Shown: one piece after another, positions 11,141 to 28,058 of the stretch
How positions within the stretch are numbered: position 1 is the first letter of the stretch
How the letters are laid out: the number at the start of each line of letters is the position of its first letter
Origin: Plantactinospora soyae
GTDB lineage: Bacteria; Actinomycetota; Actinomycetes; Mycobacteriales; Micromonosporaceae
Length of the DNA stretch: 64,000 nucleotides
NCBI RefSeq assembly: GCF_014874095.1
Contig: NZ_JADBEB010000001.1
Span: 8,246,001 to 8,310,000, forward strand
Direction of reading: 5' to 3'
The notes under the pieces: model-generated
The model's input: the letters and a program-made list of their open reading frames with translations, nothing else
Told to the model about the DNA's origin: nothing
Database searches by the model: none
Made by a program: the position numbers and the translations under genes

Positions 11141-12169
11141 TCAGCCGCCGTCGACCGGCCGGAAGGGATCGACGGAGTGTCGCGCCTTCGCCGTCCGGTT
11201 GGTGGTCGCCGCGATCGAGTTGAACAGGACCCGGCCGAGTACGGCGTGCGCCTGCACCGCCGGGTGCGTCGCCCCGTAGTTGTCGAGGTCGCCGAGGGAG
11301 TCGGCGAAGAGCGCGTACGTCAGCGTCGGCGCGCCGTTCGCGTCGAACATGATGCCGGCCTCGTGCCGCGCGGCGCCGAGGTCGTCGAAGTCCGAGCCGT
11401 ACTTGGTGGCGACCCGGCTGCGCTCGGCCGAGGACATGTTGCGGCGGACCCCGTCGTGGTACCCGTTGATCCAGCGCAGGATGCCGAGCAGGAAGTCGGC
11501 CGACCTCGCGGAGAGCAGCGTCTTGTTGGCCAGCCGCCACAGCAGGTCGTGGGTCTCACGCGGCGTGGTGACGCCGAGGAAGAACCGGTTCGGGTTGGCG
11601 ACCGGTTCCACCCGGGTGTGGATGAAGCCCTTCGCGGCGAGGATCTCGTTGATCTCCAGCGCCGGAACGACCCGGCCACACATCCGGACCGCCGTGTTGT
11701 CCGAGACGAGCAGCATCGCGGTGAGGAAGTTGGCGACCGTGACCTGGTCGCCCCAGACGGTCTGCAGGAAGTAGATGCCGGTGCCGCCGAGGATGATGTC
11801 CGCGTTGAGGTCGAGCCGCTGGTCCAGGCGCAGCTCACCACGGTCGATCTTGTCCATCACCGCCACGGCCACCGCGAGCTTCTGCACGCTGTAACCGTGG
11901 GTCACGTGGTCGGCGTCGTCCTCCACAATGGTCTCCAGCGCACCGGCCGGGTTGACCATCGCGATGTGCGAGTGCCACACCCCACCCGCACGGGTCTTCT
12001 GCTCGTTGTACTTCCGCCGGATCTTGTTCCGGTTCGCCTCGACGCCGGCCGACACGGCGGGCTGCACCGGTCCGCTCGGCGCGGCGACCGCGGCCCGACC
12101 GGTCGCCACGACTGTCGCCGCCGCCGCACCCATCCCGATCGCGACCCGGCGAGTGACCTGCTCTGCCAT
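11141..12169 (-). CDS. Tat-exported class-A beta-lactamase-like serine hydrolase
   Basis: 342 residues from ATG 12169, chosen for the GGGGGAGG site just upstream. Twin-arginine signal TRRVAIGMGAAAATVVATG, cleavage near residue 30. The penicillin-binding/class-A fold is supported by Ser94-xx-Lys97 (YSVQKL) and Ser156-Asp157-Asn158 (LVSDNTA). The third motif KTG is not obvious; Lys256-Tyr-Gly (ATKYGSDF) followed by HEAGIMFDANG is the best candidate. Length is slightly above a typical class A enzyme. It may be a D,D-peptidase-like or other serine hydrolase rather than a beta-lactamase, and resistance cannot be inferred. No regulator is adjacent. Confidence 0.75.
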   Translation of the reverse strand: MAEQVTRRVAIGMGAAAATVVATGRAAVAAPSGPVQPAVSAGVEANRNKIRRKYNEQKTRAGGVWHSHIAMVNPAGALETIVEDDADHVTHGYSVQKLAVAVAVMDKIDRGELRLDQRLDLNADIILGGTGIYFLQTVWGDQVTVANFLTAMLLVSDNTAVRMCGRVVPALEINEILAAKGFIHTRVEPVANPNRFFLGVTTPRETHDLLWRLANKTLLSARSADFLLGILRWINGYHDGVRRNMSSAERSRVATKYGSDFDDLGAARHEAGIMFDANGAPTLTYALFADSLGDLDNYGATHPAVQAHAVLGRVLFNSIAATTNRTAKARHSVDPFRPVDGG

Positions 12170-12341
12170 GGTTCCTCCCCCGTTGACCATCGACAAACGT
12201 CCGAGGGAGCGTAGCGATCAGGGCCTCCGGCAACAAGCGCGACAGCGGGGTCGGGACCGTTCCAGTCGTCGTACAGTCCATGTCCAGTGGGGTGGGTCAG
12301 GCTTCGGCGAATTCGCCACCCGCCACCGATCGGAGCACCCC

Positions 12342-15093: not shown

Positions 15094-15115
15094 TCACATC
15101 TGGAAGGGGATGGCG

Positions 15116-15574
15116 ATGGCGATCACAGGAACGGCGACGGACAATCCCGCCCGCTTCCCCCGCCTGTCCGAGCTCTACCGACAGGCCACCGCGCAGACCG
15201 GCTCCGCTCCGCTGCCGATCGGAGTGCACTCCCCCGGCCACGTCGCGGCAACCGACGAGCAGGCGAGGGAGGAGTACTGGCCCACCTACCGGACGTTCCT
15301 GCTCGACGTCCGCCGGCAACGGGGCTTCCCCGAGATCACCCGCGAGTACTTCGAGCACGAGGTGTCGTACGGCTCCCTCTACGTCGGCTCGCCCGAGACG
15401 GTGGCCGGGCGCATCGTCAAGACCATGACCATCCTCGGGGCCACCCGCTTCGACCTCAAGTACGGCATGGGACCGATGCCGCACGCGATCCTGATGGAGA
15501 ACATCCGCCTCTTCGGCACCGAGGTCGCACCCCGGGTACGCGAACGTCTCCGGCTGCCGGTGGCCCGTTCCTGA
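15116..15574 (+). CDS. N-terminally truncated LLM-class oxidoreductase paralogue
   Basis: 152 residues from ATG 15116; ATG 15110 is in frame but has no spacing to the GGAAGGGG site, which suits 15116. It aligns only with the C-terminal part of the luciferase-like enzyme at 12690: both contain GVHSPGHVAATDEQAR, VGSPETVA and RFDLKYGMG. The first residues, MAITG..NPARF, line up with the internal strand LAIIGGSPARF of the complete protein. The N-terminal half of the TIM barrel, including the flavin-contact strands, is missing. It has its own ribosome site and sits behind three operator palindromes, so it may be expressed. It is either a remnant or a small protein with a new role. Confidence 0.7.
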   Translation: MAITGTATDNPARFPRLSELYRQATAQTGSAPLPIGVHSPGHVAATDEQAREEYWPTYRTFLLDVRRQRGFPEITREYFEHEVSYGSLYVGSPETVAGRIVKTMTILGATRFDLKYGMGPMPHAILMENIRLFGTEVAPRVRERLRLPVARS

Positions 15575-15622: not shown

Positions 15623-16729
15623 TCACAGGGGTAGCCACTCGGTGCCGGTGGTGACCGCCGCCAGGGCGTCGGGGATCGGCTCGACGCCGATACCCGGGCC
15701 GGTCGGCACGGCGAGGTGGCCGTCCGCGAGCACGAACGGGGCGGTGATGTCCGTCCGGTAGTAGCGGTCCGAGGCGGAGGTGTCGCCGGGCAGCGTGAAC
15801 CCGGGCAGCGCCGCCAGCGCCACGTTCGCGGCCCGGCCGATCCCGGTCTCCAACATGCCGCCGCACCAGACCGGTACGCCCTGCGCCACGCAGACGTCGT
15901 GCACCCGGCGCGCCTCCAGGTAGCCGCCGACCCGACCCGGCTTGACGTTCACGATCGCGCACGCCCCCAGCGCGATGGCGTCGGCGGCGGCCCGGGCCGA
16001 GGTGATCGACTCGTCCAGGCAGACCGGCGTACGGAGAACCCGGGCCAGTTCCGCGTGTCCGAGCAGGTCCTCCTCGTCTAACGGCTGCTCGATCAGCAGC
16101 AGGTCGAACGGGTCCAGCCGGGCCAGGTGCCGAGCGTCTCCCCGGCGGTACGCGGCGTTCGCGTCCACCTGCAACAGGATGTCGTCGCCGAACCGCTCCC
16201 GTACGGCGCGTACCGGCTCGACGTCCCACCCCGGCTCGATCTTCAGCTTGATCCGGACGTAGCCGGCCGCGAGGTAGCCGCCCACCGCGTCCAGCAGTTC
16301 GTCGACCGAGTCCATGATGCCGACCGAGACTCCACAGGGGACGCGGTCGCGTACCGCACCCAGCTCGCGGGCGAGTGACCGGCCCTCGGCGCGCAGCTCG
16401 GCGTCGAGCACCGCCGTTTCCAGCGCTGCCTTCGCCATCCGGTGCCCCCGGACCGGGGCCAACGCCGGGGCCACCCGGTTGGCGTCCAGGCCCGGCTGCG
16501 CCGCGAGCGCCGGGATCAGGAACCGACGCAGCACCTCCCCGGCCGCCGCCACGTACTCCGAGGAGTACAGCGGCTCCGACATCGCCACGCACTCACCCCA
16601 ACCCTCGGCCTCCGTCGTCACCACCCGGAGCAGCAGGACGTCCCGGGACGTCTCCGTGCCGAAGGAGGTCCGGAACGGTGCCACCAACGGCATCCGGATC
16701 CGGCGCAGTTCCACTCCGGTGAGCTTCAT
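15623..16729 (-). CDS. OSBS/N-succinylamino acid racemase-like enolase superfamily enzyme
   Basis: 368 residues. Muconate-lactonising subgroup of the enolase superfamily: acid-base lysines Lys161 and Lys163 (RIKLKIEPG) and Lys263 (VNVKPGR), metal ligands Asp189 (LLQVDANAAY), Glu214 (LLIEQPLDEE) and Asp239 (CLDESI). This is the o-succinylbenzoate synthase / N-succinylamino acid racemase (NSAR) family. No other menaquinone gene is near. Instead it follows a COG3375 acyltransferase and an M20 hydrolase, the gene set known for irreversible D- to L-amino-acid conversion, so the NSAR role is preferred. ATG 16729 overlaps the upstream stop by ATGA; GAGGAGAGACG precedes it. Last gene of the operon starting at 22248. 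Confidence 0.85.
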   Translation of the reverse strand: MKLTGVELRRIRMPLVAPFRTSFGTETSRDVLLLRVVTTEAEGWGECVAMSEPLYSSEYVAAAGEVLRRFLIPALAAQPGLDANRVAPALAPVRGHRMAKAALETAVLDAELRAEGRSLARELGAVRDRVPCGVSVGIMDSVDELLDAVGGYLAAGYVRIKLKIEPGWDVEPVRAVRERFGDDILLQVDANAAYRRGDARHLARLDPFDLLLIEQPLDEEDLLGHAELARVLRTPVCLDESITSARAAADAIALGACAIVNVKPGRVGGYLEARRVHDVCVAQGVPVWCGGMLETGIGRAANVALAALPGFTLPGDTSASDRYYRTDITAPFVLADGHLAVPTGPGIGVEPIPDALAAVTTGTEWLPL

Positions 16730-17688
16730 CGGTCGTCTCTCCTCGTCTCCCGCGTCACCACGTACCACCCCGAACGATCGAAGCCGGTCACCCGGGCGCC
16801 CTCGGCCATCAGCGGCGCCAGCACCTCGCGGACCGCCACCCGCCACTCCTTCGCCACCCCCGGATCGGTCCGGCGCACCGCCGCGATGTCCGCCGGCACC
16901 GCCACCAGCAGGACGTTCCCATCGGTCGTACCGGTCACCGGCCGGTTCCGGGCGGACCGCCGCAACGCGACGACGGCCCCGCGCGCCCGCTCCGCCTCGA
17001 CGTCGCTGGGGGCCAGCGACCGGGCGCACGCCGCCATCACGGCGGCCGTGGTCAGCTCCCAGTGCACCAGCAACCGGTCGGTGTCGTCGCTGCCGTTGAT
17101 GCCGTCGTTCATCGCTCCGTAGAAGTTCGGCAGGTACTGCGCCGGCAGCGCCGCCAGCTTCGACAGGTTGAAGTACGCGTTGCGGCAGACCAACGGGTCG
17201 AACGTCCAGCCGATCGTGGACACCCCGCGATGCAGTGCCCAGGCCCGCTGGTGCAGCTTGAGGGCGAACCCGACACTGCGTCCGAGGGCCGCCCCGGAGA
17301 CCCCGGCGATGTGGCTGTGCATCGACCGCTCCCCCGGCGGACCGAAGAAGGCCACACAGGCGCCCACCAGCAGCCCACCCTCGTACGCCCCGGCGACGTA
17401 GTTGCCCGTCTTCGCCAGCGCCCGCAACAGTTCCGTGGTCACCGGGGGATTCGTCGGATCGGGACGCCAGATCCCCTCGTAGAGCCGGTGCACCGCCCGG
17501 AGGTCGGTGAGGTCGTCGAGGTGGCGAACGGTGACCCCGGCCGCCCGGGCCGCCGTGTCGGCCGCACTGTCGGCCGTCGCCGCGAGGACCAGGTCGACGG
17601 CCGGACCGGCGAGGGGCGGCGCTGCCGGAGGAGAGGCATCGGGGTCGGTCACGCGCTCCATGCTGCCGCCCGGACCGGGCAACGTCAT
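16726..17688 (-). CDS. COG3375-family GNAT acyltransferase, candidate D-amino acid N-succinyltransferase
   Basis: 320 residues; the first 45 are Pro/Ala-rich. The rest is a predicted GNAT-superfamily protein: VTVRHLDDLTDLRAVHRLYEGIWRP, then GLLVGACVAFFGP, SHIAGVSGAALGRSVGFALKLHQRAWAL (acyl-CoA pyrophosphate-loop region) and TIGWTFDPLVCRNAYFNLSKLAA, typical of COG3375. In Geobacillus a GNAT protein next to NSAR and an M20 hydrolase N-succinylates D-amino acids; the same trio is present here with ATGA overlaps on both sides. Function is inferred from this context. MenC-adjacent COG3375 proteins in general remain poorly characterised. Confidence 0.75.
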   Translation of the reverse strand: MTLPGPGGSMERVTDPDASPPAAPPLAGPAVDLVLAATADSAADTAARAAGVTVRHLDDLTDLRAVHRLYEGIWRPDPTNPPVTTELLRALAKTGNYVAGAYEGGLLVGACVAFFGPPGERSMHSHIAGVSGAALGRSVGFALKLHQRAWALHRGVSTIGWTFDPLVCRNAYFNLSKLAALPAQYLPNFYGAMNDGINGSDDTDRLLVHWELTTAAVMAACARSLAPSDVEAERARGAVVALRRSARNRPVTGTTDGNVLLVAVPADIAAVRRTDPGVAKEWRVAVREVLAPLMAEGARVTGFDRSGWYVVTRETRRDDR

Positions 17689-18887
17689 GCTCGGCGGAGA
17701 CCGGAGCCGGCCGGCGGTTCAGTCGGGGTCGGCCGGTCTCCATCGCCGGGCCGCTCCCCGCCCCGACCGCGAAGGTGTTCGGTGAGTGCCGCCACCAGCG
17801 CCGCCCGGCCGGGCAGCTCCGCCACGAGCACGTGCTCGTGGTCGGCGTGCGCCCCACCACCGACCGCGCCGAGACCGTCCAGCGTCGGCGTGCCGACCCC
17901 CGCGGTGAAGTTGCCGTCCGAACCACCACCCACGGCGGCACCGCGCAGCGGCGGTAGCCCGAGTCGCGCGGCGAGCACCTCGGCGATCGCGAACAGCTCC
18001 GTCGACGCGCCCGCCGCCAGCGGTGGCCGATTCGGTCCGCCGGTCACCGTCAGCCGGGCCCCGGGCAGTACCGGTGTCAGCGCGCGCATCGCCGCGTCCA
18101 CCCGGTGCTGCTCGGCGGCGTTCCGGGCCCGTACGTCGACGGCGAAGCCGCCCGCGTCCGGAACGGTGTTCGTGCTGGTGCCGGCCGCGACCAGCGTGGG
18201 CGTGACGGTCGTACCCCGGTCCGGGTCGCCGAGGGCGTTCACCGCGAGCACCTGGTGGGCCAGCTCCACCGTGGCGTTGACGCCGCGCTCCGGTTCCAGG
18301 CCGGCGTGCGCGGCCAGCCCGGTCACCTCCACCCGGTACCGCGACACGCCCTTGCGCTCGGTCTTGAGCGCGCCTCCGTCGGCCGCCGCCTCCAGCACCA
18401 GGGCGCCGGCGCAGCCCGCCGCCTCGGCCTCGACGAGCGTCCGCGAACTCGGCGATCCGAGTTCCTCGTCGCCGGTCACCAGGATCGTCACCCCGGACCG
18501 GTCGGTCAGCGCCGCCACCGCGTACAGCCCCAGCACCAGGCCGGCGACCATGTCGACGCAACCCGGTCCGCGCAGCACGCCGTCGGTCACGTCGAACGGA
18601 TGGGTGGCCAGCGTTCCCAGCGGCCACACCGTGTCGTGGTGGCCGAGCAGCAGCACCCGGGCCGGCCCGTCCCCGAACCGCCAGCGCAGGTGCGGACAGC
18701 CGTCGAGGACGATCCGCTCCGGTGCCACCCCGAGCAGCCGGATGCCGATCCGGGTGACCGCGTCGGCGCTGGCCGCCAGCGCGGTGTGGTCCACCGACGG
18801 CGACTCGCAGGTCACCAGCGCCTCGATGTCGGCCAGCATCGCCGGCAGCGCCGCCCGGAACCGTTCCAGCAGCGCGTCGTCGGCCAT
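17685..18887 (-). CDS. M20-family metallohydrolase, candidate N-succinyl-L-amino acid desuccinylase
   Basis: 400 residues from ATG 18887. M20 peptidase/deacylase family: metal ligands His83-x-Asp85 (LGHHDTVWP), bridging Asp112 (CVDMVAG), catalytic Glu141 and adjacent Glu142 (VTGDEELGSPSS) and a C-terminal His (GAHADHEHV). The lid domain follows at about 180-290 (ERKGVSRYRVEVTGLAAHAGLEPERGVNA). No signal peptide, so cytosolic. Glutamate-carboxypeptidase-like members hydrolyse N-acyl amino acids or dipeptides. It is separated by one base from the stop of the S9/S12 fusion gene (TGAGATG) and overlaps the acyltransferase start, so the four products should be made in fixed proportion. Confidence 0.82.
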   Translation of the reverse strand: MADDALLERFRAALPAMLADIEALVTCESPSVDHTALAASADAVTRIGIRLLGVAPERIVLDGCPHLRWRFGDGPARVLLLGHHDTVWPLGTLATHPFDVTDGVLRGPGCVDMVAGLVLGLYAVAALTDRSGVTILVTGDEELGSPSSRTLVEAEAAGCAGALVLEAAADGGALKTERKGVSRYRVEVTGLAAHAGLEPERGVNATVELAHQVLAVNALGDPDRGTTVTPTLVAAGTSTNTVPDAGGFAVDVRARNAAEQHRVDAAMRALTPVLPGARLTVTGGPNRPPLAAGASTELFAIAEVLAARLGLPPLRGAAVGGGSDGNFTAGVGTPTLDGLGAVGGGAHADHEHVLVAELPGRAALVAALTEHLRGRGGERPGDGDRPTPTEPPAGSGLRRA

Positions 18888-18888
18888 C

Positions 18889-21800
18889 TCAGCCCACCTT
18901 CGGGGTCGCGCGGGCACCGAAGTGCAGATACCGCTCGCCCGTCGCGAGCCGGTAGAAGGTCACCGGCGTCCAGGTACGGGCGCCCGGCTGGCGTACCAGG
19001 AACAGGTTCTCGTCCAGCGGCACCATCGGATGGTCCCGGGTCGGCTCGGGCACCAGCGCGGCCAGCGGCCCGGTGACCGTGGTACGCAGCACCGGCCCGT
19101 CCTGTCCGGCCAGCACCTCCAGCCGGGCGCCGGCCCGCTCGTACGTCCCCAGGTGCGGGCCCACGTCCGCGGTCACCGGGTCGGCCGGCGGGGCGAGCGG
19201 GTGCGGCATCGTCACACCGGCCAGCTCGGCGAAGATCTCCCGGTACAGGTCCTCGTACAGGTCGCGGGTGTTCCCGCCGTTCGTCAGCAGGGTCACCGCC
19301 AGCTTGGCCCCGGGCAGGATCCGCAGGAACGCCGACTGCCCGATGGTGTTCCCGTCGTGGCCGATCACCCGGGACCCGTCCCAGGACATCCTGATCCAGC
19401 CCAGTCCCCACGAGTCGCCCAGCGTGTACCGGTCCGGCAGGTCGGCGTGCTTCGCCGCCATCGCCGTGACGCTCGCCTCGCTCAGCCACCGGGTGCCGTC
19501 CGGGGTCAGCCCGCCGGTCAGGTGCGCCCGGACGAAGCCGAGCACGTCCGCGACGGTCGAGGTGATCAGGCCGGCCGGTCCCAACGACCGGGGCAGTCCC
19601 CACACCGGTGCCCTGGTCGGTGCCGCCCCGCCCTCGCCGACGTGTCCGACCGCGGCCCGGTGCAGCAGCGCGTCCTCCGGCAGGGTTCCGGTACGCCGCA
19701 GCCCGAGCGGGATGACGATGCGCTCCCGCACGGCGGCGTCCCAGGTGCCGCCGGTCAGCTTCTCGATCACCCGTCCGGCGAGCGAGAATCCGGAGTTGCA
19801 GTACGACCAGGTGGCCCCGAGGGCGTGGTTCTGCGCCACCCCGGCCAGGCCGGCGACGTACCTCTCCAGGCAGTCGTCGCCCCGACCGGTGTCGGTGAAC
19901 ACGTCGCCGTCGATGCCGCTGGTGTGGGTCAGCAGGTGCCGCACCGTCACCTGCTTGGTCACCGTCTCCTCGGCCAGCCGCAGCTCCGGGAGCACCTCCA
20001 CGACCGGGGCGTCCAGGTCGAGCAGCCCCTCGTCGACGAGTTGCAGCAGGACGGTCGCCGTCCACACCTTCGAGATGGAGCCGATCTGGAAAACCGAATC
20101 CGTGGTCGCCGGTACTCCGGTGTCCAGGTTCAACACCCCGTACGCCGCCTCGACCAGTTCGTCCTCGCCGTCCGGCCGCAACCGCAGGATGCCCAGCGCG
20201 GCACCCGGCACCCCGTGGCGCTCCGCCAGCGCGGTCAGTCGGCGCTGCCAGTGCGCGGTGTCGATCGGGACCGGTCCGGGGCCGGTGACGTCTCCGGCGT
20301 ACCGCTGGACCCAGTCCACGATCCGCCGGTTGAAGTCGATCCGGTGCGACGGTGGACCGTCCAGGATGAACAGGTGCGCGCCCTCCGGGTAGAGCACCAG
20401 TTGGGTGGGCACGCCCCGCTCACGCAGCGCGGTGTGCCACTGCTGGGCCTGCCCGACCGGGCAGCGCAGGTCGGCGGCGCCCTGTAGGACCAGGGTCGGG
20501 GTGCGTACCTCGTCGACCCTGGTCAGCGGCGACATCGCGGCGTACCGGTCGCGGTCCGCCCAGGGCGGGCCGCCGAGTTCGTACCCGCTGAGGAAGTGCG
20601 CCGCGTCGGAGGTGCCGACCATGCTGGTCAGGTCGCTGACCACGCCGCCGGCCACCGCCGCCGCGAACCGGTCGTCGCGGCTGGTCAGGTAGCAGGTCAG
20701 GTAGCCGCCGTAGCTGTACCCGGTGACGGCCAGTCGGCGTGGATCGGCGACGCCCTCGGCGACCAGGGTGTCGACCGGCTCCAGGAAGTCCTTCGCGTCC
20801 GACATCCCCCAGGCTTCCTGGGCGGCGGTGAAGAACCGGGCGCCGTAGCCGTCGCTGCCCCGAGGATTGACCAGCAGCACCGCCCAGCCGCGCGCGGCCA
20901 GTTCCTGGTGGTAGAGGTGCACCTGGTCGGCCGCGCCGTTCCAGGCGTTGTGCGGTCCACCGTGGATGTCGAGCAGCAGCGGCAGCGGCCCGGCGGCGTC
21001 CGGGTCGCGCAGCAGCCAGGCGTGCACCACCGTGCCGTCCGAGACGACGAACTCCCGCTCCTCGTGCGGGAACAACTCGACCTCGCCCCGGTCCGCGCCG
21101 TGGTCGGTGCGGACCGACTCGGTGCCGGCCGCGATGTCGACCGTCACGATCTCGCCGAACGAGGTGGGCGTGCCGAGCAGGATCGCGGCGGTGTTCCCGG
21201 CGACCGAGAGCCCGGTGACGTTGCGCCCGGCGCCCGTGACGAGCGGACGCGGCGTACCGCCGTCGACCGGTACGGCGTACAGGTGGGTGCAGCCACGGTC
21301 GCGGACGCAGAACAGCACGGTGTCGCCGTCGCCGGTGAGCTGCGGTACCGCACCCGGGTACGCCGGACTGCCCGGCATCACGTTCCGGTCCAGCGGTGCG
21401 GCGAGGTCCCGTACCGGGCCGCCGTCGAGCGGTACCCGCAGCAGGCGGGCGTGCCCCACCGGGGCGCCGGTGGTGCCGACGACCAGCAGGGCGGACCCGT
21501 CGGCGGTCCACCGGACGTGATTGGCGACGCCGTCGCCCAGCCCGGCCGGTCGGGGCCCGGACCGGTCGTCCGCCACCTCGACGACGTGCACCGGCGCCCG
21601 GATCGTCAGGTCGGCGTCCGGCCCGGTCGCCGCGGCGAAGGCCAGCCGGCTGCCGTCCGGTGACCAGGCGGGCGTACCGGCGTGCCAGCCGCCCCGGGTC
21701 AGCTGGCGACAGTTCCCGGTGGCCAGGTCGAGCACGTGCAGATGCCGGCGGACGCCGCGCAGCAGGCCCGCACCGTCGGCCTGGTAGTCCAGCCGGTCCG

Positions 21801-22248
21801 CCACGATCGGACGGTTGGCGCGCCGTTTCCGGGCGTCGTCGGACTCGTCGGGCTCGGCGAGCGGGTCCACCCGGGCGGCGAACGCGATCGCCGTGCCGTC
21901 CGGGCTCCACATCGGCGCACCGGCGCCCAGCGGCAGCCTCGTCACCTGTTCGGGCTCGCCGCCGTCGGGCGGCAGCAGCCACACCTGTGCGGGGCCGTCC
22001 TCGGCACGCAGGAACGCGACCCGGCTGCCGTCCGGCGACCACGCGGGCGACGAGTCGTTCCGGCCCCTGGTCAGTCGCGTCGGCCGCCCGTCCCAGGCGC
22101 CGACGTGCCACAGCGACCGCACGGTACGGTCCGCGTCGGCGTCGCTGCCGCGCAGCACGTACACGATGCGGGTGCCGTCCGGCGACAGCGCGGGCTGTTC
22201 CGGCACGGTGAACAGGGTCAGGTCCTCGATGCGCTGGCGTCGGGTCAC
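18889..22248 (-). CDS. S9 prolyl-oligopeptidase-family peptidase fused to an S12 beta-lactamase-like domain
   Basis: 1119 residues, GTG start with GAGGAG upstream. Residues 1-390 form a WD40-like/TolB propeller with WSPDG repeats. Residues 395-655 are an alpha/beta-hydrolase with the S9C triad Ser512 (GYSYGG), Asp593 and His625 (EGAH). Residues 660-1119 are a second enzyme of the class-C beta-lactamase/D-aminopeptidase (S12) family: Ser724-xx-Lys727 (SISK), Tyr816-x-Asn818 (YCN) and His964-Asp-Gly (HDG). Both active sites look intact. No signal peptide, so the protein is probably cytosolic. S9C enzymes release N-terminal residues or acyl amino acids from peptides, and S12 includes D-aminopeptidases. 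First gene of the operon with M20, COG3375 and NSAR genes. The fusion boundary is near 650-660. Confidence 0.85.
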   Translation of the reverse strand: MTRRQRIEDLTLFTVPEQPALSPDGTRIVYVLRGSDADADRTVRSLWHVGAWDGRPTRLTRGRNDSSPAWSPDGSRVAFLRAEDGPAQVWLLPPDGGEPEQVTRLPLGAGAPMWSPDGTAIAFAARVDPLAEPDESDDARKRRANRPIVADRLDYQADGAGLLRGVRRHLHVLDLATGNCRQLTRGGWHAGTPAWSPDGSRLAFAAATGPDADLTIRAPVHVVEVADDRSGPRPAGLGDGVANHVRWTADGSALLVVGTTGAPVGHARLLRVPLDGGPVRDLAAPLDRNVMPGSPAYPGAVPQLTGDGDTVLFCVRDRGCTHLYAVPVDGGTPRPLVTGAGRNVTGLSVAGNTAAILLGTPTSFGEIVTVDIAAGTESVRTDHGADRGEVELFPHEEREFVVSDGTVVHAWLLRDPDAAGPLPLLLDIHGGPHNAWNGAADQVHLYHQELAARGWAVLLVNPRGSDGYGARFFTAAQEAWGMSDAKDFLEPVDTLVAEGVADPRRLAVTGYSYGGYLTCYLTSRDDRFAAAVAGGVVSDLTSMVGTSDAAHFLSGYELGGPPWADRDRYAAMSPLTRVDEVRTPTLVLQGAADLRCPVGQAQQWHTALRERGVPTQLVLYPEGAHLFILDGPPSHRIDFNRRIVDWVQRYAGDVTGPGPVPIDTAHWQRRLTALAERHGVPGAALGILRLRPDGEDELVEAAYGVLNLDTGVPATTDSVFQIGSISKVWTATVLLQLVDEGLLDLDAPVVEVLPELRLAEETVTKQVTVRHLLTHTSGIDGDVFTDTGRGDDCLERYVAGLAGVAQNHALGATWSYCNSGFSLAGRVIEKLTGGTWDAAVRERIVIPLGLRRTGTLPEDALLHRAAVGHVGEGGAAPTRAPVWGLPRSLGPAGLITSTVADVLGFVRAHLTGGLTPDGTRWLSEASVTAMAAKHADLPDRYTLGDSWGLGWIRMSWDGSRVIGHDGNTIGQSAFLRILPGAKLAVTLLTNGGNTRDLYEDLYREIFAELAGVTMPHPLAPPADPVTADVGPHLGTYERAGARLEVLAGQDGPVLRTTVTGPLAALVPEPTRDHPMVPLDENLFLVRQPGARTWTPVTFYRLATGERYLHFGARATPKVG

Positions 22249-22456
22249 CGGCTTCTCCTCGCGGGGGTGGCGGCCACCCGGCCCATGGCGCGGCGTCGGA
22301 TCCGGTCGTCGCGACGATGTGGCGGTCGGCCCGGTGGCGGGGTGGGACGGCGGCAGGTCTCCAGGACCAGGTTTAGCACGGTGACCTGAGTGCCGACCTC
22401 GGGCGCCGAGGCGGTCCCGTCCGCGAGCGTTACGGAACGCGAGCCCTCCGCGCCGG

Positions 22457-23362
22457 TCAGGGGGTGGTGGCCTCGTCGCGCCAGCCGTGCCGGGTCTCGA
22501 AACCGAACAGCCGACGCGCGGCGGAACTGTCCACCAGCGACTCGACGCCGCGCAGCGGTGCCCGGACCTGCGTGCTCGGGTGGAACCGGGCCAGCAGTTC
22601 GGCGGTCGGCACCGTGGTCGAGGTGTCGGGTGCGGCGATGTTCACGACGTGGTGACCGGTGAGACCGGAGGTCAGCACGGCGTGGACGGCACCGGCCGCG
22701 TCCCGGGTGTCCAGCCACGCCCACAGCTCCCGGCGGCTGCCGGCCACGTTCCGCCGGATCTGCGCCAGTTGGGCGGCCAGCCGGTCGCCGTCGCCGACGA
22801 ACGGAAACCGCAGCAGGGTCGTCGGCATCCCCCAACGGCGGGTGGCGAACGCACCGACCTGCTCGGTCACCATCTTCGACAGCCCGTACGAGTCGATCGT
22901 CACCGGCGCCTGGTCCTCGTCGATCGGCGCGTACGGCGGGGACAGGTCCCGCCCCGCCCACGCGTACCCGTACGCCGAGACGCTGGACGCCGCGACCGCG
23001 CACCGTACGCCCGCCCGGCCGGCGCCGTCGAGGACGAGGTAGGCGCCCTGGACATTCTGCGTGAGGGTCTCGTCCTCGGGTACCTGGCCGGGAGAGGGGA
23101 TCGCGGCGAGGTGCACGACGGCGTCGACCGGCCGGCCGAACGGACGCAGGCTCTCCTCGACGAACGCCGAATCCCGGACGTCGCCGACGAGCACCAGTTC
23201 CGCCTTGGGGCTGGCGAACGGCGACCGGTCGACGGCGACGACCCGCAGCCCCGCGTCGGCCAGGTGTGGCACGACGACCGCCCCGATGAGGCCGGCCGCG
23301 CCGGTGACCAGTACGACGTCGTCGGCGCCCAGCGCGGAGCCCCGGGTTTCCTGCTCGGACAT
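22457..23362 (-). CDS. NAD-dependent epimerase/dehydratase-family protein (extended SDR)
   Basis: 301 residues. Extended short-chain dehydrogenase: dinucleotide loop G21AAGLIG27, DVRD after the third strand, HLAA at 84-87, and active-site Tyr159-xxx-Lys163 (YGLSK) with SSVSAYG before it. Related proteins include sugar nucleotide epimerases and uronate dehydrogenases. Its place 34 nt after a sugar ABC permease gene, in the same operon and near a mannonate-dehydratase-like enzyme, favours a role in uronate or sugar oxidation. Ribosome site GGGGAGAG before ATG 23362. The next 207 nt (22249-22456) towards the peptidase operon show no gene. Confidence 0.75.
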   Translation of the reverse strand: MSEQETRGSALGADDVVLVTGAAGLIGAVVVPHLADAGLRVVAVDRSPFASPKAELVLVGDVRDSAFVEESLRPFGRPVDAVVHLAAIPSPGQVPEDETLTQNVQGAYLVLDGAGRAGVRCAVAASSVSAYGYAWAGRDLSPPYAPIDEDQAPVTIDSYGLSKMVTEQVGAFATRRWGMPTTLLRFPFVGDGDRLAAQLAQIRRNVAGSRRELWAWLDTRDAAGAVHAVLTSGLTGHHVVNIAAPDTSTTVPTAELLARFHPSTQVRAPLRGVESLVDSSAARRLFGFETRHGWRDEATTP

Positions 23363-23396: not shown

Positions 23397-24299
23397 TCAG
23401 CCCTTGATCGCCCCGGTGAGCCCGTTGACGAAGTACCGCTGGGCGGCGAGGAATCCGATGACGACCGGGATGACCACGATCAGCGCGCCGGCCATCAGCG
23501 AGTTGTACTGCACCACCTGTGAGGACTTCAGCGCCTGGAGGGCGATCGGCAGGGTGTAGGTGGCGGGGTCGTTGAGCGAGACCCGGGTCAACAAGTACTC
23601 GTTCCAGGTCGGGATCGCGGTCAGCAGCGCGATCGTCACCAGGGCGGGACGGGCGAGCGGCAGGTACACCCGGGCGAAGATCCGCAGTTCGCCGGCGCCG
23701 TCCACCCGGGCCGAGTCGCGCAGTTCGGCCGGGATGGCCCGGAACGCGTTGGTCAGCAGGAGGATCGCGAACGGTGCGGTGCCGTTGATGAACGGCAGGA
23801 CCAGCCCGAGGTGGGTACCGAGGATCGCCAGCCGGTTCTCCAGCAGCACGATGGGCAGCAGCGTGACGACACCGGGTACGAAGAGCAGGGCGACGAAGAG
23901 CCGGTAGAGCGCGACCCGGCCGGGAAAGTGCAGGACGGCGAAGGCGTACGAGGCGGCCGAGTAGATCACCACGACGCCGAGGGTGGTGGCCACGGTCACC
24001 TGGAGGCTGTTGACGAAGTAGTCGAAGAAGTGCAGCCGGTTCCAGGTATCGACCAGGGTGCTCAGGGTCGGGTCGCGCGGGATGAGGTGTCCCCCGGCGA
24101 CGACCTCCTGCTGGGTCTTGAAGGCCGCCGAGACCATCCAGAGGAACGGGTAGAGGCTCACCACGGCGTACCCGGCGAGCAGCAGCGCGATGATCGTCCG
24201 GGCGAGAACGACCCGGGGCGGCCACCGGCGGGCCCGCTTCGGGGCCGGGGTGGGTTCGGTGCCGGGCCGGGTGGCGGCCGGTGCCGCACTGATTGCCAT
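23397..24299 (-). CDS. Carbohydrate ABC transporter permease (MalG-like)
   Basis: 300 residues. Six membrane segments and the cytoplasmic EAA-loop RVDGAGELRIFARVYLPLARPAL mark a binding-protein-dependent sugar permease; ends in the common QRYFVNGLTGAIKG. ATG 24299 shares one base with the stop of the preceding permease (TGATG). Partner of the permease at 24299-25273 and the lipoprotein at 25270-26643. There is no ATPase gene in the operon; actinomycetes commonly energise such systems with a shared MsiK-type ATPase. Confidence 0.9.
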   Translation of the reverse strand: MAISAAPAATRPGTEPTPAPKRARRWPPRVVLARTIIALLLAGYAVVSLYPFLWMVSAAFKTQQEVVAGGHLIPRDPTLSTLVDTWNRLHFFDYFVNSLQVTVATTLGVVVIYSAASYAFAVLHFPGRVALYRLFVALLFVPGVVTLLPIVLLENRLAILGTHLGLVLPFINGTAPFAILLLTNAFRAIPAELRDSARVDGAGELRIFARVYLPLARPALVTIALLTAIPTWNEYLLTRVSLNDPATYTLPIALQALKSSQVVQYNSLMAGALIVVIPVVIGFLAAQRYFVNGLTGAIKG

Positions 24300-25273
24300 C
24301 ACCGCTCCCTGGTGACGCGGAAGTTGACGACGGCGACCACGAGTGCGGCGACGAAGAGCATCCAGCCCAAGGCGCTGGCGAGCCCCAGCGTCGGGGCGAG
24401 CTCCGACTGGAACGCGAGCCGGTACGTCTGCAGGCCGAGCACGTTGGTGTGGTCGCCGGGACCGCCGTCGGTCATGATGAGGAAGATCTGGAAGCCCTGG
24501 AGCGCGTCGCGCAGGTTGAGCAGCACGATGACCGCCGTGATGCCGCGCAGCAGCGGCCAGACCACGCTGAGGTTGACCCGCCACCATCCCGCGCCGTCGA
24601 TCTGGGCGGCCTCGGTCAGTGCCGGGTCGATGGTCTGCAGACCGGTCAGGTAGAGCAGGGTCGCGACCGGAACCGCGGACCAGACCATGATCATGATCAG
24701 CGTGGGCAGCGCGGTGTCGGGGTTGCCGAGCCAGCCCTGCGGCTGGGCCAGCGAGCCGAGTCCGAGCGCGCCGAGCAGGGTGTTGATCGCGCCGTTGGGC
24801 TCCAGGACGTACTGCCAGGCCAGGTAGACCGCGATGCCGGTGGTGATGTACGGGACGAAGTAGACCGAGCGGAGCAGCCCGACGAACCGGCGGGTCCGGT
24901 TCAGGGCCAGCGCCAGCGGAAAGGAGATCACGACGGTGAGCAGCGGCGCCGCGATCATCACCCAGACCGTGTTCGTCGCCGCCGCCCGCACCGGCGGGGA
25001 GAAGACCGGACTGGCCCAGAGCAGGTCGAGGTAGTTCTGCACGCCGACCCAGATCCAGGTCGGGGTCAGCCCGTTCCAGCGTACGAAGGAGAGTTGCAGG
25101 CCCCAGAACAGCGTGTAGACGCCCATGACGGCGAAGAGGATGATCGCCGGAGCCACGAAGGCGTACGCCCAGGCCACCTCCCGGCCCTGGTAACGCCGGC
25201 GTCCGGAGCCCCGCCCGGTGCGGCCACGGGTGACCGTGACCGCACCGAGCGACGAAGGAACGTCCGTGGTCAT
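24299..25273 (-). CDS. Carbohydrate ABC transporter permease (MalF-like)
   Basis: 324 residues. Arg-rich N-terminus, then WAYAFVAPAIILFAVMGVYTLFWGLQLSFVRWNGL as first membrane segment; six predicted segments in all. The EAA loop reads EAAQIDGAGWWRVNLSVVWPLL, followed by FQIFLIMTDGGP, typical of MalF-type sugar permeases. ATG 25273 overlaps the stop of the binding-protein gene by ATGA. Works with the MalG-like permease; substrate probably an oligosaccharide or sugar acid given the neighbouring mannonate-dehydratase-family gene. Confidence 0.9.
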   Translation of the reverse strand: MTTDVPSSLGAVTVTRGRTGRGSGRRRYQGREVAWAYAFVAPAIILFAVMGVYTLFWGLQLSFVRWNGLTPTWIWVGVQNYLDLLWASPVFSPPVRAAATNTVWVMIAAPLLTVVISFPLALALNRTRRFVGLLRSVYFVPYITTGIAVYLAWQYVLEPNGAINTLLGALGLGSLAQPQGWLGNPDTALPTLIMIMVWSAVPVATLLYLTGLQTIDPALTEAAQIDGAGWWRVNLSVVWPLLRGITAVIVLLNLRDALQGFQIFLIMTDGGPGDHTNVLGLQTYRLAFQSELAPTLGLASALGWMLFVAALVVAVVNFRVTRER

Positions 25274-26643
25274 TTCCCTGCCCAGTAGCCGTCGATGATC
25301 TTTTGTAGTCCGGCTCCGGCGGTCGGCACGTCCGCCTTCTTCAGCGGGGTGAGTTCCATCAGCGACCGGGCCACCACCGCCGCGTCGTACGAGGGCGGCT
25401 GGTGGGTGGTGTCACCGGGGTTGTACGCCTGAGCACCCGACCCGAACGAGCCGATCATGGCCCCGAGCACCGGACCGAGCGTCGCCGTCGGATCACCGCC
25501 GAGGTCGACCGGGGGTACGTCCAGCGCGTCCTTGGCGAACTGGGCCGCGACCTCGGGCTGGGCCAGGTGGTCGAGCCACTTGACCGCACCGTCCTTGTTG
25601 CCGGTCGTGGCCGAGACCGACAGCCCGGTGAGGGCGAACGGGGCGAGGCTCAGGTCGGGCACCGCACCGCCGCTGGGCGACGGGACCGGGAAGGTGACGA
25701 TGTTCTCGGCCTTCATTCCGTTCTGCACCAGAAACGCCAGGGTGAACGTGCCGCCGATGGCGAACGAGGACTTGCCCTGGGCGAACGCGATGTCGGCGTC
25801 GTCGATCGTCAGGGTCTGGGTCCCCGGCATCCAGTACGGCGTCACCTGGTCGTACGTCTCCAGCACGGCCCGGCCGCTCGGCGAGGTCCAGTTCTTCGCC
25901 GGATCCTTGGAGAAGAGCCCGGTGAAGCCCTCCTTGCCCAGCTTGCCGTAGGCCATCGGCTGCATCAGCCACTCCATGCCGGTGGTCGGCGCCTGGAAGC
26001 CGATGCTCATTCCGCCGTCGTCGGGCCGGACCTTGCGGACCGCCGCCAGCGCGGCGACGAACTCTTCCCAGGTCTTCGGCGACCCGGTGACGCCCGCCGC
26101 CGTCAGCCGTTCCTTGTTCGCGTAGACGATGCCGAAGGTCCCGATGGTCAGCGGCACGCTGAACCGCTGATTGAGTTTGATCCCGGCGGACTTGGCGCCC
26201 TTCTCCTGGGACTGCTTGTAGTACCGCTCGGTGACGGTCCCCTCGGCGGCGACCGAGGGCAGGTAGCGGCTGGTCCAGGTGGCCTCCTCGGTGAGGTCCT
26301 CCAGCAGTCCGGCCGCACCGAAGGTGAAGTCGTCGCCGTTGGTGTGCACCTCGAACACGTCGGGCAGGCTGCGGGTCTGGGCGGCGGCCTGGACCCGGGC
26401 CAGGAACGCGTCGTCCGGGGTGATCGCCTCGACGGTCACCCCGATCCCGGTCTTCTGCTTGAAGGTTTCGGCGGCCTTCTGTAGCGCCGCGACGTGGGAC
26501 TGCTTGAACGTCCACATCGTCAGGTTGTCGCCGTTCGCCTGGTCGTCCCCGCCGGGACTACAGGCGGTGGCCGCGCTGGCGAGCGCGAGGATCGTGGCGA
26601 TCGAGAGACAGGTACGGGCCGTTCGACGTAAGTATCGGTTCAC
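25270..26643 (-). CDS. Sugar ABC transporter extracellular solute-binding lipoprotein
   Basis: 457 residues from GTG 26643 (GGAAGAGG upstream). Signal peptide with lipobox TAC (ATACSPGGDD, Cys near residue 28), then a family 1 solute-binding fold: LTMWTFKQSHVAALQKAAETFKQKTGIGVTVEAI, DVFEVHTNGDDF, GIVYANKERLTAAGV and DADIAFAQGKSSFAIGG. First gene of the leftward importer operon with two permeases and the epimerase/dehydrogenase. Its promoter region is shared with the divergent mannonate-dehydratase-like gene and contains an ATCAA-T-TTGAT palindrome (26703-26713) thought to bind the ROK repressor at 28075. Confidence 0.9.
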   Translation of the reverse strand: MNRYLRRTARTCLSIATILALASAATACSPGGDDQANGDNLTMWTFKQSHVAALQKAAETFKQKTGIGVTVEAITPDDAFLARVQAAAQTRSLPDVFEVHTNGDDFTFGAAGLLEDLTEEATWTSRYLPSVAAEGTVTERYYKQSQEKGAKSAGIKLNQRFSVPLTIGTFGIVYANKERLTAAGVTGSPKTWEEFVAALAAVRKVRPDDGGMSIGFQAPTTGMEWLMQPMAYGKLGKEGFTGLFSKDPAKNWTSPSGRAVLETYDQVTPYWMPGTQTLTIDDADIAFAQGKSSFAIGGTFTLAFLVQNGMKAENIVTFPVPSPSGGAVPDLSLAPFALTGLSVSATTGNKDGAVKWLDHLAQPEVAAQFAKDALDVPPVDLGGDPTATLGPVLGAMIGSFGSGAQAYNPGDTTHQPPSYDAAVVARSLMELTPLKKADVPTAGAGLQKIIDGYWAGK

Positions 26644-26700
26644 GCTGCGCCTCTTCCATCCCTGCGGGCGGCTCCTGGTCAGGCCAAGGAAACAGAACGT

Positions 26701-26715
26701 AAATCAATTTGATAT
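26701..26715. promoter_or_regulatory. Operator-like motif shared with the ROK gene promoter
   Basis: AAATCAATTTGATAT, with the perfect palindrome ATCAA-T-TTGAT at 26703-26713, lies between the divergent binding-protein gene and the mannonate-dehydratase-like gene. A matching motif (12 of 15 bases) lies upstream of the ROK regulator at 29426-29440. It is AT-rich in a GC-rich region, so a regulator site is likely. Confidence 0.6.
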
Positions 26716-26756
26716 ATAGTGTCAACAACGTCGACGAGTCCAGGAAGGGCACCGCG

Positions 26757-28058
26757 ATGGCGCCGTCCCCCTCAGTGGAATCCCCCGGCCACACAGCGGT
26801 CCTGGCGCCCGCACCGTGGAGTGTGCCCGGCGTCGACGACACCCGGGTCACCCGGGTCCGGACGTTCCTGTGTGCCCCGCAGGGCTGCCCGTACGTCATC
26901 ACCCGGGTCGAGACGAACCAGCCCGGCCTGTACGGGCTGGGCTGTGCCAGCGATCCGCAGCGGACCCTCGCGATCCGGTCCGTCGTGGACGACTATCTCG
27001 GGCCGATGCTGCTCGGCCGGGACCCGGCGGACATCGAGGACCTGCACCGGCTGCTGCTTCACAGCGGTTACTGGCGCGGTGGTTCGATCGCCAACAACGC
27101 CCTCGCCTCGATCGACGTCGCGCTCTGGGACATCAAGGGCAAGGTCGCCGGCCTTCCCCTGTACCAACTGCTCGGCGGCCGGGCCCGGGAGTACGCCGAG
27201 GCGTACACCCATGTGGACGGGGTGGACGTCGACGAGGTGGCGGACCTCGTCCTCGCCGCCCGGCAGCGGGGATACCGGCACGTCCGGGTCCAGTTGGCCG
27301 TACCCGGAACGGACACCTACGGCACGGCGCCGACCGACGAGCGGCAGGCCGAGCGCAGGCGTACCCGCCGGGAGTCCTGGGACAGCCTGGCCTACCTGCG
27401 GCACGTGCCCCGGGCCCTCGTCGAGGTACGCGACCGCGTCGGCCCCGACGTCGAGTTGCTGCACGACGCGCACGAGCGGCTGACGCCCGCCCAGGCCCGC
27501 CAGTTCGTCCGGGCGGTCGAGGACGCCGGACTGTACTTCCTCGAGGACGCCCTCGCACCGGAGGACGCCGCCCACTTCCCCGGGCTGCGTACGGCCGGCA
27601 GCACCCCGATCGCCGTCGGCGAACTCTACGCGGACGTCGCCCAGTACCTGCCGCTGCTGGAGCAGCGCGTGATCGACTACGCCCGGATCCGCATCCCCAC
27701 GCTCGGCGGGCTGACCCCGACCCGCAAGCTGGTGGCCGCCTGTGAACTCTTCGGGGTGCGGACCGCTCCGCACGGCCCCGGCGACGTGAGCCCGGTCGGG
27801 CAGGCGGCCAACGTGGCGCTCGACATCTCCTCGCCCGCCTTCGGGGTGCAGGAGGCGGCGACCTTCCGGGACGCGACGCTGGAGGTCTTCCCGGGCGCGC
27901 CGGTGCCGGTCGCGGGCCGGTTCCGGCCGAGCCCGGCGCCGGGCCTGGGCGTCGACTTCGACGAGACGGCGGCCCGGCGGCACCCGGTCACCGCACCGCT
28001 GGACCACGACCGCTGGGCGCTGCTGCGGGCGACCGACGGCAGCGCGCACCGGCCGTGA
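26757..28058 (+). CDS. Mannonate dehydratase-family enolase superfamily protein (RspA/ManD-like)
   Basis: 433 residues from ATG 26757 with AGGAAGGG upstream. Enolase superfamily, ManD/RspA group: Asp237 and His239 (LLHDAHERL), Glu263 (YFLEDAL), Glu289 (AVGELYA) and His339 (TAPHGPGDVSPVG); the N-terminal capping domain has SIANNALASIDVALWDIKGKVAG. Members dehydrate D-mannonate or D-gluconate to 2-keto-3-deoxygluconate, some with low efficiency, and some have no known acid-sugar activity. Divergent from a sugar importer operon and followed by a ROK repressor, so the three are probably one regulon for uronate or sugar-acid use. Confidence 0.85.
   Translation: MAPSPSVESPGHTAVLAPAPWSVPGVDDTRVTRVRTFLCAPQGCPYVITRVETNQPGLYGLGCASDPQRTLAIRSVVDDYLGPMLLGRDPADIEDLHRLLLHSGYWRGGSIANNALASIDVALWDIKGKVAGLPLYQLLGGRAREYAEAYTHVDGVDVDEVADLVLAARQRGYRHVRVQLAVPGTDTYGTAPTDERQAERRRTRRESWDSLAYLRHVPRALVEVRDRVGPDVELLHDAHERLTPAQARQFVRAVEDAGLYFLEDALAPEDAAHFPGLRTAGSTPIAVGELYADVAQYLPLLEQRVIDYARIRIPTLGGLTPTRKLVAACELFGVRTAPHGPGDVSPVGQAANVALDISSPAFGVQEAATFRDATLEVFPGAPVPVAGRFRPSPAPGLGVDFDETAARRHPVTAPLDHDRWALLRATDGSAHRP

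Follow-up and report, generated by a model that had tools for sequence, protein, structure and literature searches.

A conserved actinobacterial gene cluster predicted to couple a two-headed peptidase to N-succinyl-dependent conversion of D-amino acids into L-amino acids

A GNAT succinyltransferase, an N-succinyl-amino acid racemase (NSAR) and an M20 L-desuccinylase reportedly form a pathway in Geobacillus kaustophilus (work attributed to Sakai et al. 2006). To our knowledge, the biochemistry of the Amycolatopsis NSAR/o-succinylbenzoate synthase (OSBS) is known for the single enzyme and not for a cluster, and we know of no link between an NSAR and the S9 peptidases 8wt1 of Geobacillus and 5yzm of Deinococcus. 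The Geobacillus NSAR and L-succinylase are in use, as part of one paper describes (PMC7431475), while the relevant section of another (PMC5808125) relates that in Bacillus subtilis and Escherichia coli a peptidase gene adjoins the gene for an enolase-superfamily L-Ala-D/L-Glu epimerase, for the recycling of D-containing murein peptides. Here we describe a four-gene operon in a 64,000-nucleotide stretch of the Plantactinospora soyae genome (contig NZ_JADBEB010000001.1, positions 8,246,001 to 8,310,000; this whole stretch is called the window, and coordinates count from its first letter). The operon encodes the same three enzyme classes as the Geobacillus pathway (a likeness by class, not one of compared proteins), and differs from it in that a two-headed peptidase precedes this core, and in that many relatives add an oligopeptide-type transporter and a PucR-type regulator. 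In contrast to the B. subtilis and E. coli epimerases, where according to the same section the dipeptide itself is epimerised, a free D-amino acid would here be acylated first. We think it reasonably likely that the operon is a cytoplasmic module turning D-amino-acid-containing peptides into L-amino acids, a reading for which we infer the substrates and stereospecificities. Its genes are:

18889-22248, minus strand: S9-S12 fusion peptidase, 1119 aa, PF00326 and PF00144, GTG start preceded by GAGGAG
17685-18887, minus strand: M20 metallohydrolase, 400 aa, PF01546 and PF07687
16726-17688, minus strand: GNAT-fold acyltransferase (by predicted fold), 320 aa, proposed D-amino-acid N-succinyltransferase
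15623-16729, minus strand: enolase-superfamily racemase of NSAR/OSBS type, 368 aa, PF13378 and PF02746

The link between the fusion peptidase and the GNAT was followed in two samples of genomes, an order sample of 397 and a class sample of 394 (some genomes are common to both, and apart from the window's own fusion no full-length fusion is counted in both), with thresholds in the order sample of E<=1e-10 for the GNAT and E<=1e-150 for the fusion. The GNAT was found in 71 genomes of the order sample and the fusion query matched 45, all of them among those 71; all 34 full-length fusion places lie in GNAT-bearing genomes, 30 of them on the GNAT contig within 13.8 kb (17 within 1.3 kb), with 25 of these 30 on the GNAT strand. 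The class sample gave the GNAT in 116/394 genomes and fusion matches in 36, and all of its 26 full-length fusions (the window's own excluded) are at most 6.6 kb from the GNAT and on the same strand. Neither sample yielded a full-length fusion in a genome lacking this GNAT. The order count used 88 of 93 GNAT places, the other five being taken as pieces of the same or another copy, and in the class sample GNAT positions were taken only from genomes with a fusion. Owing to common descent these counts are not independent trials, and the hypergeometric value of 3e-41 for the class sample, which ignores descent, is not a probability. The link between fusion and GNAT is strongly conserved in both samples; such a co-occurrence check had been called for beforehand in a preliminary description of this DNA, and its outcome supports, by inference, the dedicated peptidase front end which that description had proposed.

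The surrounding genes were then compared in the best 80 of 591 loci found (the named loci, to which all counts out of 80 below refer), with gene presence scored on the GNAT strand within the flanks examined. NSAR was present in 75 of these, M20 in 68, a PucR-type gene in 57 and both S9 and S12 in 37, while S9, S12, M20, GNAT and NSAR occur together in 34, and 25 hold these five plus the transporter and the PucR-type regulator. The NSAR gene is downstream of the GNAT gene in 75/80, and in the window the two overlap by ATGA. Of the 80 loci, 39 come with an orthologous ABC transporter of the oligopeptide type (domains SBP_bac_5, BPD_transp_1, and ABC_tran with oligo_HPY), and 37 of these 39 have S9 or S12. 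With this importer and the regulator, the cluster reaches beyond the four genes of the preliminary description. The complete set was seen in Kribbella, Kibdelosporangium, Nocardioides, Lentzea, Streptomyces, Actinomadura, Arthrobacter, Phycicoccus and Virgisporangium, among others, and the set is more than a chance grouping, as its genes are found again in order across many genera. Among the 60 order loci mapped (60 of 93 GNAT places; for the NSAR family, 20 of 78 places were retrieved), 16 have S9 and S12 in a single frame, and frames of more than 1000 residues are found in 29/80 (the L136 match spans only 61%). The window copy is a short version of the cluster. In Amycolatopsis genomes the genes are the same but differently arranged, and the Amycolatopsis-type loci also contain an Amidohydro_3 protein and more proteins of the beta-lactamase fold, the latter with no signal peptide seen by eye. 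One such locus (L025; 1552-5144 and 11472-12947) holds an extra S12 protein, two PF13354 proteins and a PRK09061-family Amidohydro_3 protein, and no signal peptide is visible by eye in the extra S12 or either PF13354 protein.

The preliminary description had read four leftward genes with junctions TGAGATG, ATGA and ATGA, which coordinates and letters bear out (GGC-TGAGATG-GCC between fusion and M20, GC-ATGA-CG between M20 and GNAT, and CG-ATGA-AG between GNAT and NSAR), and its labels of S9-S12 fusion, M20 and OSBS/NSAR agree with the Pfam domains. Its GNAT label stands at the level of the predicted fold and finds no support in the sequence libraries (Pfam, NCBIfam, PDB): sequence searches gave no Pfam or NCBIfam match, and the sole PDB match is at chance level (E 0.76). 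The structure predicted from an input of 41 sequences (predicted local distance difference test, pLDDT, 91.5; predicted template modelling score, pTM, 0.87) matches the PDB with a best E of 1.1e-7 and target TM scores of about 0.65-0.85 among the 50 matches listed, which by title are acetyltransferases or Ard1, bar two chains of 3ld2 (smu.2055, with a title that states no function). As the predicted structure matches GNAT-type acetyltransferases, the third protein is confirmed as a GNAT at fold level. The family is conserved in the relatives' genomes, and the source genome holds one GNAT (E<=1e-10) and one NSAR (E<=1e-90).

Aligned over 366 residues, the racemase shares 75% identity with the Amycolatopsis NSAR/OSBS 1sja (4a6g and 7s8w are further structures of the Amycolatopsis NSAR/OSBS) and keeps the catalytic lysines K163 and K263 and the metal ligands D189, E214 and D239, as do the 74 aligned sequences, the window's included; sequences outside length limits or with stops were removed before this and the other alignment counts. 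R266, which we take to be a second-shell residue tied to NSAR activity, is present in all 74 and identical at the aligned 1sja position. The earlier statement that all OSBS/NSAR catalytic residues are present thus holds against both 1sja and the 74 sequences, and the protein is a predicted NSAR/OSBS subfamily member with predicted racemase activity on N-succinyl-amino acids. In the M20 hydrolase, H83, D85, D112, E141, E142, E166 and H347 are kept in 64 aligned sequences (window included), with the metal-site roles (H, D, E, E, H) presumed from comparison with carboxypeptidase G2 (CPG2).

The S9 half of the fusion (about residues 1-655) consists of a beta-propeller and a hydrolase domain with the candidate triad S512, D593 and H625, and the S12 half (about 656-1119) is a beta-lactamase-fold domain with the motifs S724-x-x-K727, Y816-x-N818 and H964-x-G966. 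Both motif sets (S-D-H; SxxK, YxN and HxG) are invariant in 24 aligned fusions, and for this reason both halves are probably catalytically active, the roles of these residues being assumed from the family motifs. The best matches of the S9 half are the Geobacillus S9 carboxypeptidase 8wt1 (32-33% identity) and then the Deinococcus S9 peptidase 5yzm, which are alike in fold with about 28-33% identity over this half, have chains of about 650-690 residues and lack the S12 half; the fold neighbours include acylaminoacyl peptidases besides carboxypeptidases. The S12 half matches PDB entries 7spn, 6ksu (presumably SurE), 4y7p, 1cef and others, several of which we take to act on D-residue substrates. 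It has the PF00144 fold with SxxK, YxN and HxG in common with the alkaline D-peptidase 4y7p, the DD-carboxypeptidase 1cef, ClbP and 6ksu, but unlike these S12/PBP-type hydrolases it is fused to an S9 half and apparently cytoplasmic, as judged by eye, with no signal peptide seen in the fusion on inspection. D-bonds are more likely to be cut by the S12 half, given that the S9 half most resembles S9 carboxypeptidases. D-stereospecific enzymes are documented in the sections concerned of two papers, as peptidases cleaving D-containing nonribosomal peptides (PMC9231227) and as hydrolases acting on D-containing peptides (PMC13206553). The predicted structure of the fusion is of middling quality (pLDDT 78.7), and we therefore draw nothing from the position of one active site relative to the other.

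In the mechanism that we propose, an Opp/Dpp-type ABC transporter (in about half of the named loci, and not part of the window copy) would import peptides, and the fusion would cut imported or cell-derived peptides, its S9 carboxypeptidase-like half on ordinary L-bonds and its S12 half on bonds adjoining D-residues. The GNAT would acylate the freed D-amino acids, most likely from succinyl-CoA, the NSAR would racemise the N-succinyl-D-amino acid, and the M20 would hydrolyse the N-succinyl-L form, drawing the flow irreversibly to L-amino acid and succinate. The PucR-type regulator, usually downstream in relatives, would be part of the module. In its wider form, by which many actinobacteria would carry a self-contained D-peptide utilisation system, with an importer, one cytoplasmic peptidase with separate sites for L-bonds and D-bonds, and an irreversible N-succinyl inversion, so that cell-wall debris or nonribosomal synthesis would supply mixed D/L peptides that end wholly as L-amino acids, we put this forward tentatively and would not call it probable.

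Several observations weigh against the conversion of D-containing peptides by this operon. With regard to linkage, 5 of the 30 fusions that share a contig with the GNAT in the order sample run on the strand opposite to it, 4 of the 34 full-length fusions of that sample are on a contig without GNAT, 3 of the 36 fusion-match genomes of the class sample (G489, G708 and G741, all S12-only matches) have no GNAT, and the searches scored the two best candidates per genome, so that fusion copies away from a GNAT may be missed. Close relatives are over-represented among the named loci as the best 80 of 591, and in 41 of them the flanks show no orthologous transporter on the GNAT strand. Many relatives have GNAT and NSAR without peptidase or even without M20, and in a same-genus relative (L169) the transporter, S9, S12 (a two-piece match), GNAT, NSAR and PucR were found and M20 was not. 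The window itself gave no match to the relatives' transporter or PucR between 9001 and 32000; in the source genome the relatives' fused permease-ATPase, the one transporter part searched for, was matched over the ATPase half only, at <=48% identity, apart from a single match spanning both halves at 36% identity, which contains a stop. The closest M20 relative with a solved structure is carboxypeptidase G2 (1cg2) and no desuccinylase, and the window's CPG2-type M20 also stands apart from the M20 found with NSAR on a Priestia plasmid (Bacillota), to which it is only remotely similar; from this remoteness the hydrolase may have been recruited to NSAR loci more than once. Finally, the D-aminopeptidase model NF009622 scores the fusion 52 bits vs a cut-off of 443, and as S12 hydrolases also comprise esterases and beta-lactamases, D-specificity is not deducible from the S12 family.

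The NCBI models and annotations state another function for the racemase, that of the o-succinylbenzoate synthase of menaquinone synthesis: TIGR01928, the equivalog model for that enzyme, scores it 309 vs a cut-off of 201, and relatives are annotated menC. In the source genome (9.7 Mb, one contig), however, two MqnA/MqnD-type genes and one MqnC exceed their cut-offs while the best MenD (78 bits vs 244) and MenB (138 vs 343) do not, and with the futalosine genes over and MenD and MenB under cut-off a menaquinone role is very unlikely here; the racemase was accordingly rejected as the MenC of this genome. As the gene also adjoins GNAT, M20 and peptidase genes, and R266 is kept throughout the alignment, we find an OSBS function scarcely credible. 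The D-to-L route claimed in the preliminary description is indirectly supported by the identity to the Amycolatopsis enzyme, the pairing of GNAT and NSAR in 75/80 and the lack of menaquinone partners over cut-off; its further claim of an actinobacterial counterpart to Geobacillus stands as regards a predicted NSAR-type route and falls as regards a new core, because the Amycolatopsis enzyme has already been studied as NSAR/OSBS.

The cluster could also salvage N-acylated peptides or amino acids, with the S9 half releasing N-acyl or blocked residues, racemase and M20 processing N-acyl-amino acids, and stereochemistry being secondary. While the acylaminoacyl peptidases among the S9 fold neighbours, the nature of NSAR/OSBS enzymes as N-acyl-amino-acid racemases and the deacylase-like Amidohydro_3 gene of some clusters agree with this, an acyl-adding GNAT, which is the most constant partner of the racemase (75/80), would have little purpose if the substrate arrived acylated, and the top S9 matches are S9 carboxypeptidase or S9 peptidase entries; we regard such salvage as unlikely. 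Defence or self-protection, in which the S12 half would destroy incoming D-containing nonribosomal peptides and the remainder would recycle the debris, would suit hosts among the named loci that belong to genera known for natural products. It would also suit the D-stereospecific peptidases documented on such peptides, in the part of PMC9231227 concerned, but an importer, present in 39/80 loci, would be counter-productive for defence alone, and visual inspection suggests a cytoplasmic location for the fusion and for the additional beta-lactamase-fold proteins, which leaves little likelihood for defence. The reverse direction, with D-amino acids made from L-amino acids, is improbable in our view: the racemase step is reversible and the Amidohydro_3 protein of some clusters could release D-amino acids, but the joint inheritance of importer and peptidases (37/39) indicates use of incoming peptides, and window positions 9001-32000 hold an M20 and no match to the relatives' Amidohydro_3 protein.

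The proposed conversion of D-containing peptides may also have parallels on plasmids and in other phyla. Of the 45 plasmid records with a GNAT match, five (L189-L193) were examined in detail. GNAT and NSAR are together or a few genes apart on Priestia (Bacillota), two Deinococcus (Deinococcota) and Sulfitobacter (Alphaproteobacteria) plasmids, the Priestia locus having a MurR/RpiR regulator and M20, whilst a Streptomyces plasmid carries transporter, fusion, M20, GNAT, NSAR and PucR-type genes in a row. On a plasmid of Deinococcus sp. QL22 (L191, 5820-14694) the order is NSAR, GNAT, permease, permease, SBP5, S12 hydrolase and D-aminoacylase, with the S12 protein 34% identical to the window S12 half; this separate gathering of a peptide-type transporter, an S12 protein and a D-aminoacylase supports the D-peptide theme, as an independent recurrence in another phylum. 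The Sulfitobacter mediterraneus plasmid, typed as conjugative, carries a MurR/RpiR regulator, an amino-acid ABC transporter, NSAR and GNAT (L193, 936-6693), and this transporter suggests that free D-amino acids are imported rather than peptides. All five plasmid racemases adjoining or near a GNAT are annotated as menC, o-succinylbenzoate synthase, which is probably a systematic misannotation.

Upstream of the operon in the window lies one gap:

22249-22456, minus strand: intergenic gap of 208 bases, reaching from the upstream SDR gene (22457-23362) to the fusion start

The operon promoter would have to sit in this gap or further upstream. The sugar-type ABC transporter at 23397-26643 was considered as a part of the system and rejected, since by model match its proteins are of the MalF/MalG and SBP_bac_1 types, it adjoins a ManD-like enzyme and a ROK regulator, the SDR gene stands between it and the fusion, and it differs from the transporter of the relatives' clusters. 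Likewise, of the permease matches (26-35% identity) near some Amycolatopsis-type loci, the one examined (L025, SBP_bac_1) was of the sugar type. The sugar-type ABC operon faces a ManD-like enolase-superfamily gene (26709-28058, plus strand), with the ROK regulator beyond, and the region 23397-28058 is probably a sugar-acid utilisation unit. Directly downstream of the racemase, an open frame of 154 aa (15110-15574, plus strand) aligns over 148 columns, at 57% identity, with the C-terminal part of a nearby luciferase-like gene (PF00296; 12690-13859, minus strand), and looks like a truncated, oppositely oriented duplicate of it. A gene for a PF13354 class-A beta-lactamase-like protein is located 3.4 kb downstream of the operon (11141-12196, minus strand).

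With the D-to-L core already known, reportedly, from Geobacillus, the coupled importer and two-headed peptidase are apparently new. Within the open-licence literature we found no account of a cluster joining an N-succinyl route with an oligopeptide-type importer, a PucR-type regulator and an S9-S12 fusion, in line with the earlier remark that a peptidase coupled to this pathway is not described, although this is weak evidence as the search covered open-licence papers only. If the proposed module is real, it would account for the presence of a menC-labelled gene in an actinobacterium with menaquinone synthesis by the futalosine route, and it would provide a natural substrate source for the NSAR/OSBS family and a testable route by which soil bacteria would recycle peptide-locked D-amino acids, together with a matched enzyme set for D-to-L conversion and, for structural work, a peptidase of unusual two-headed build.

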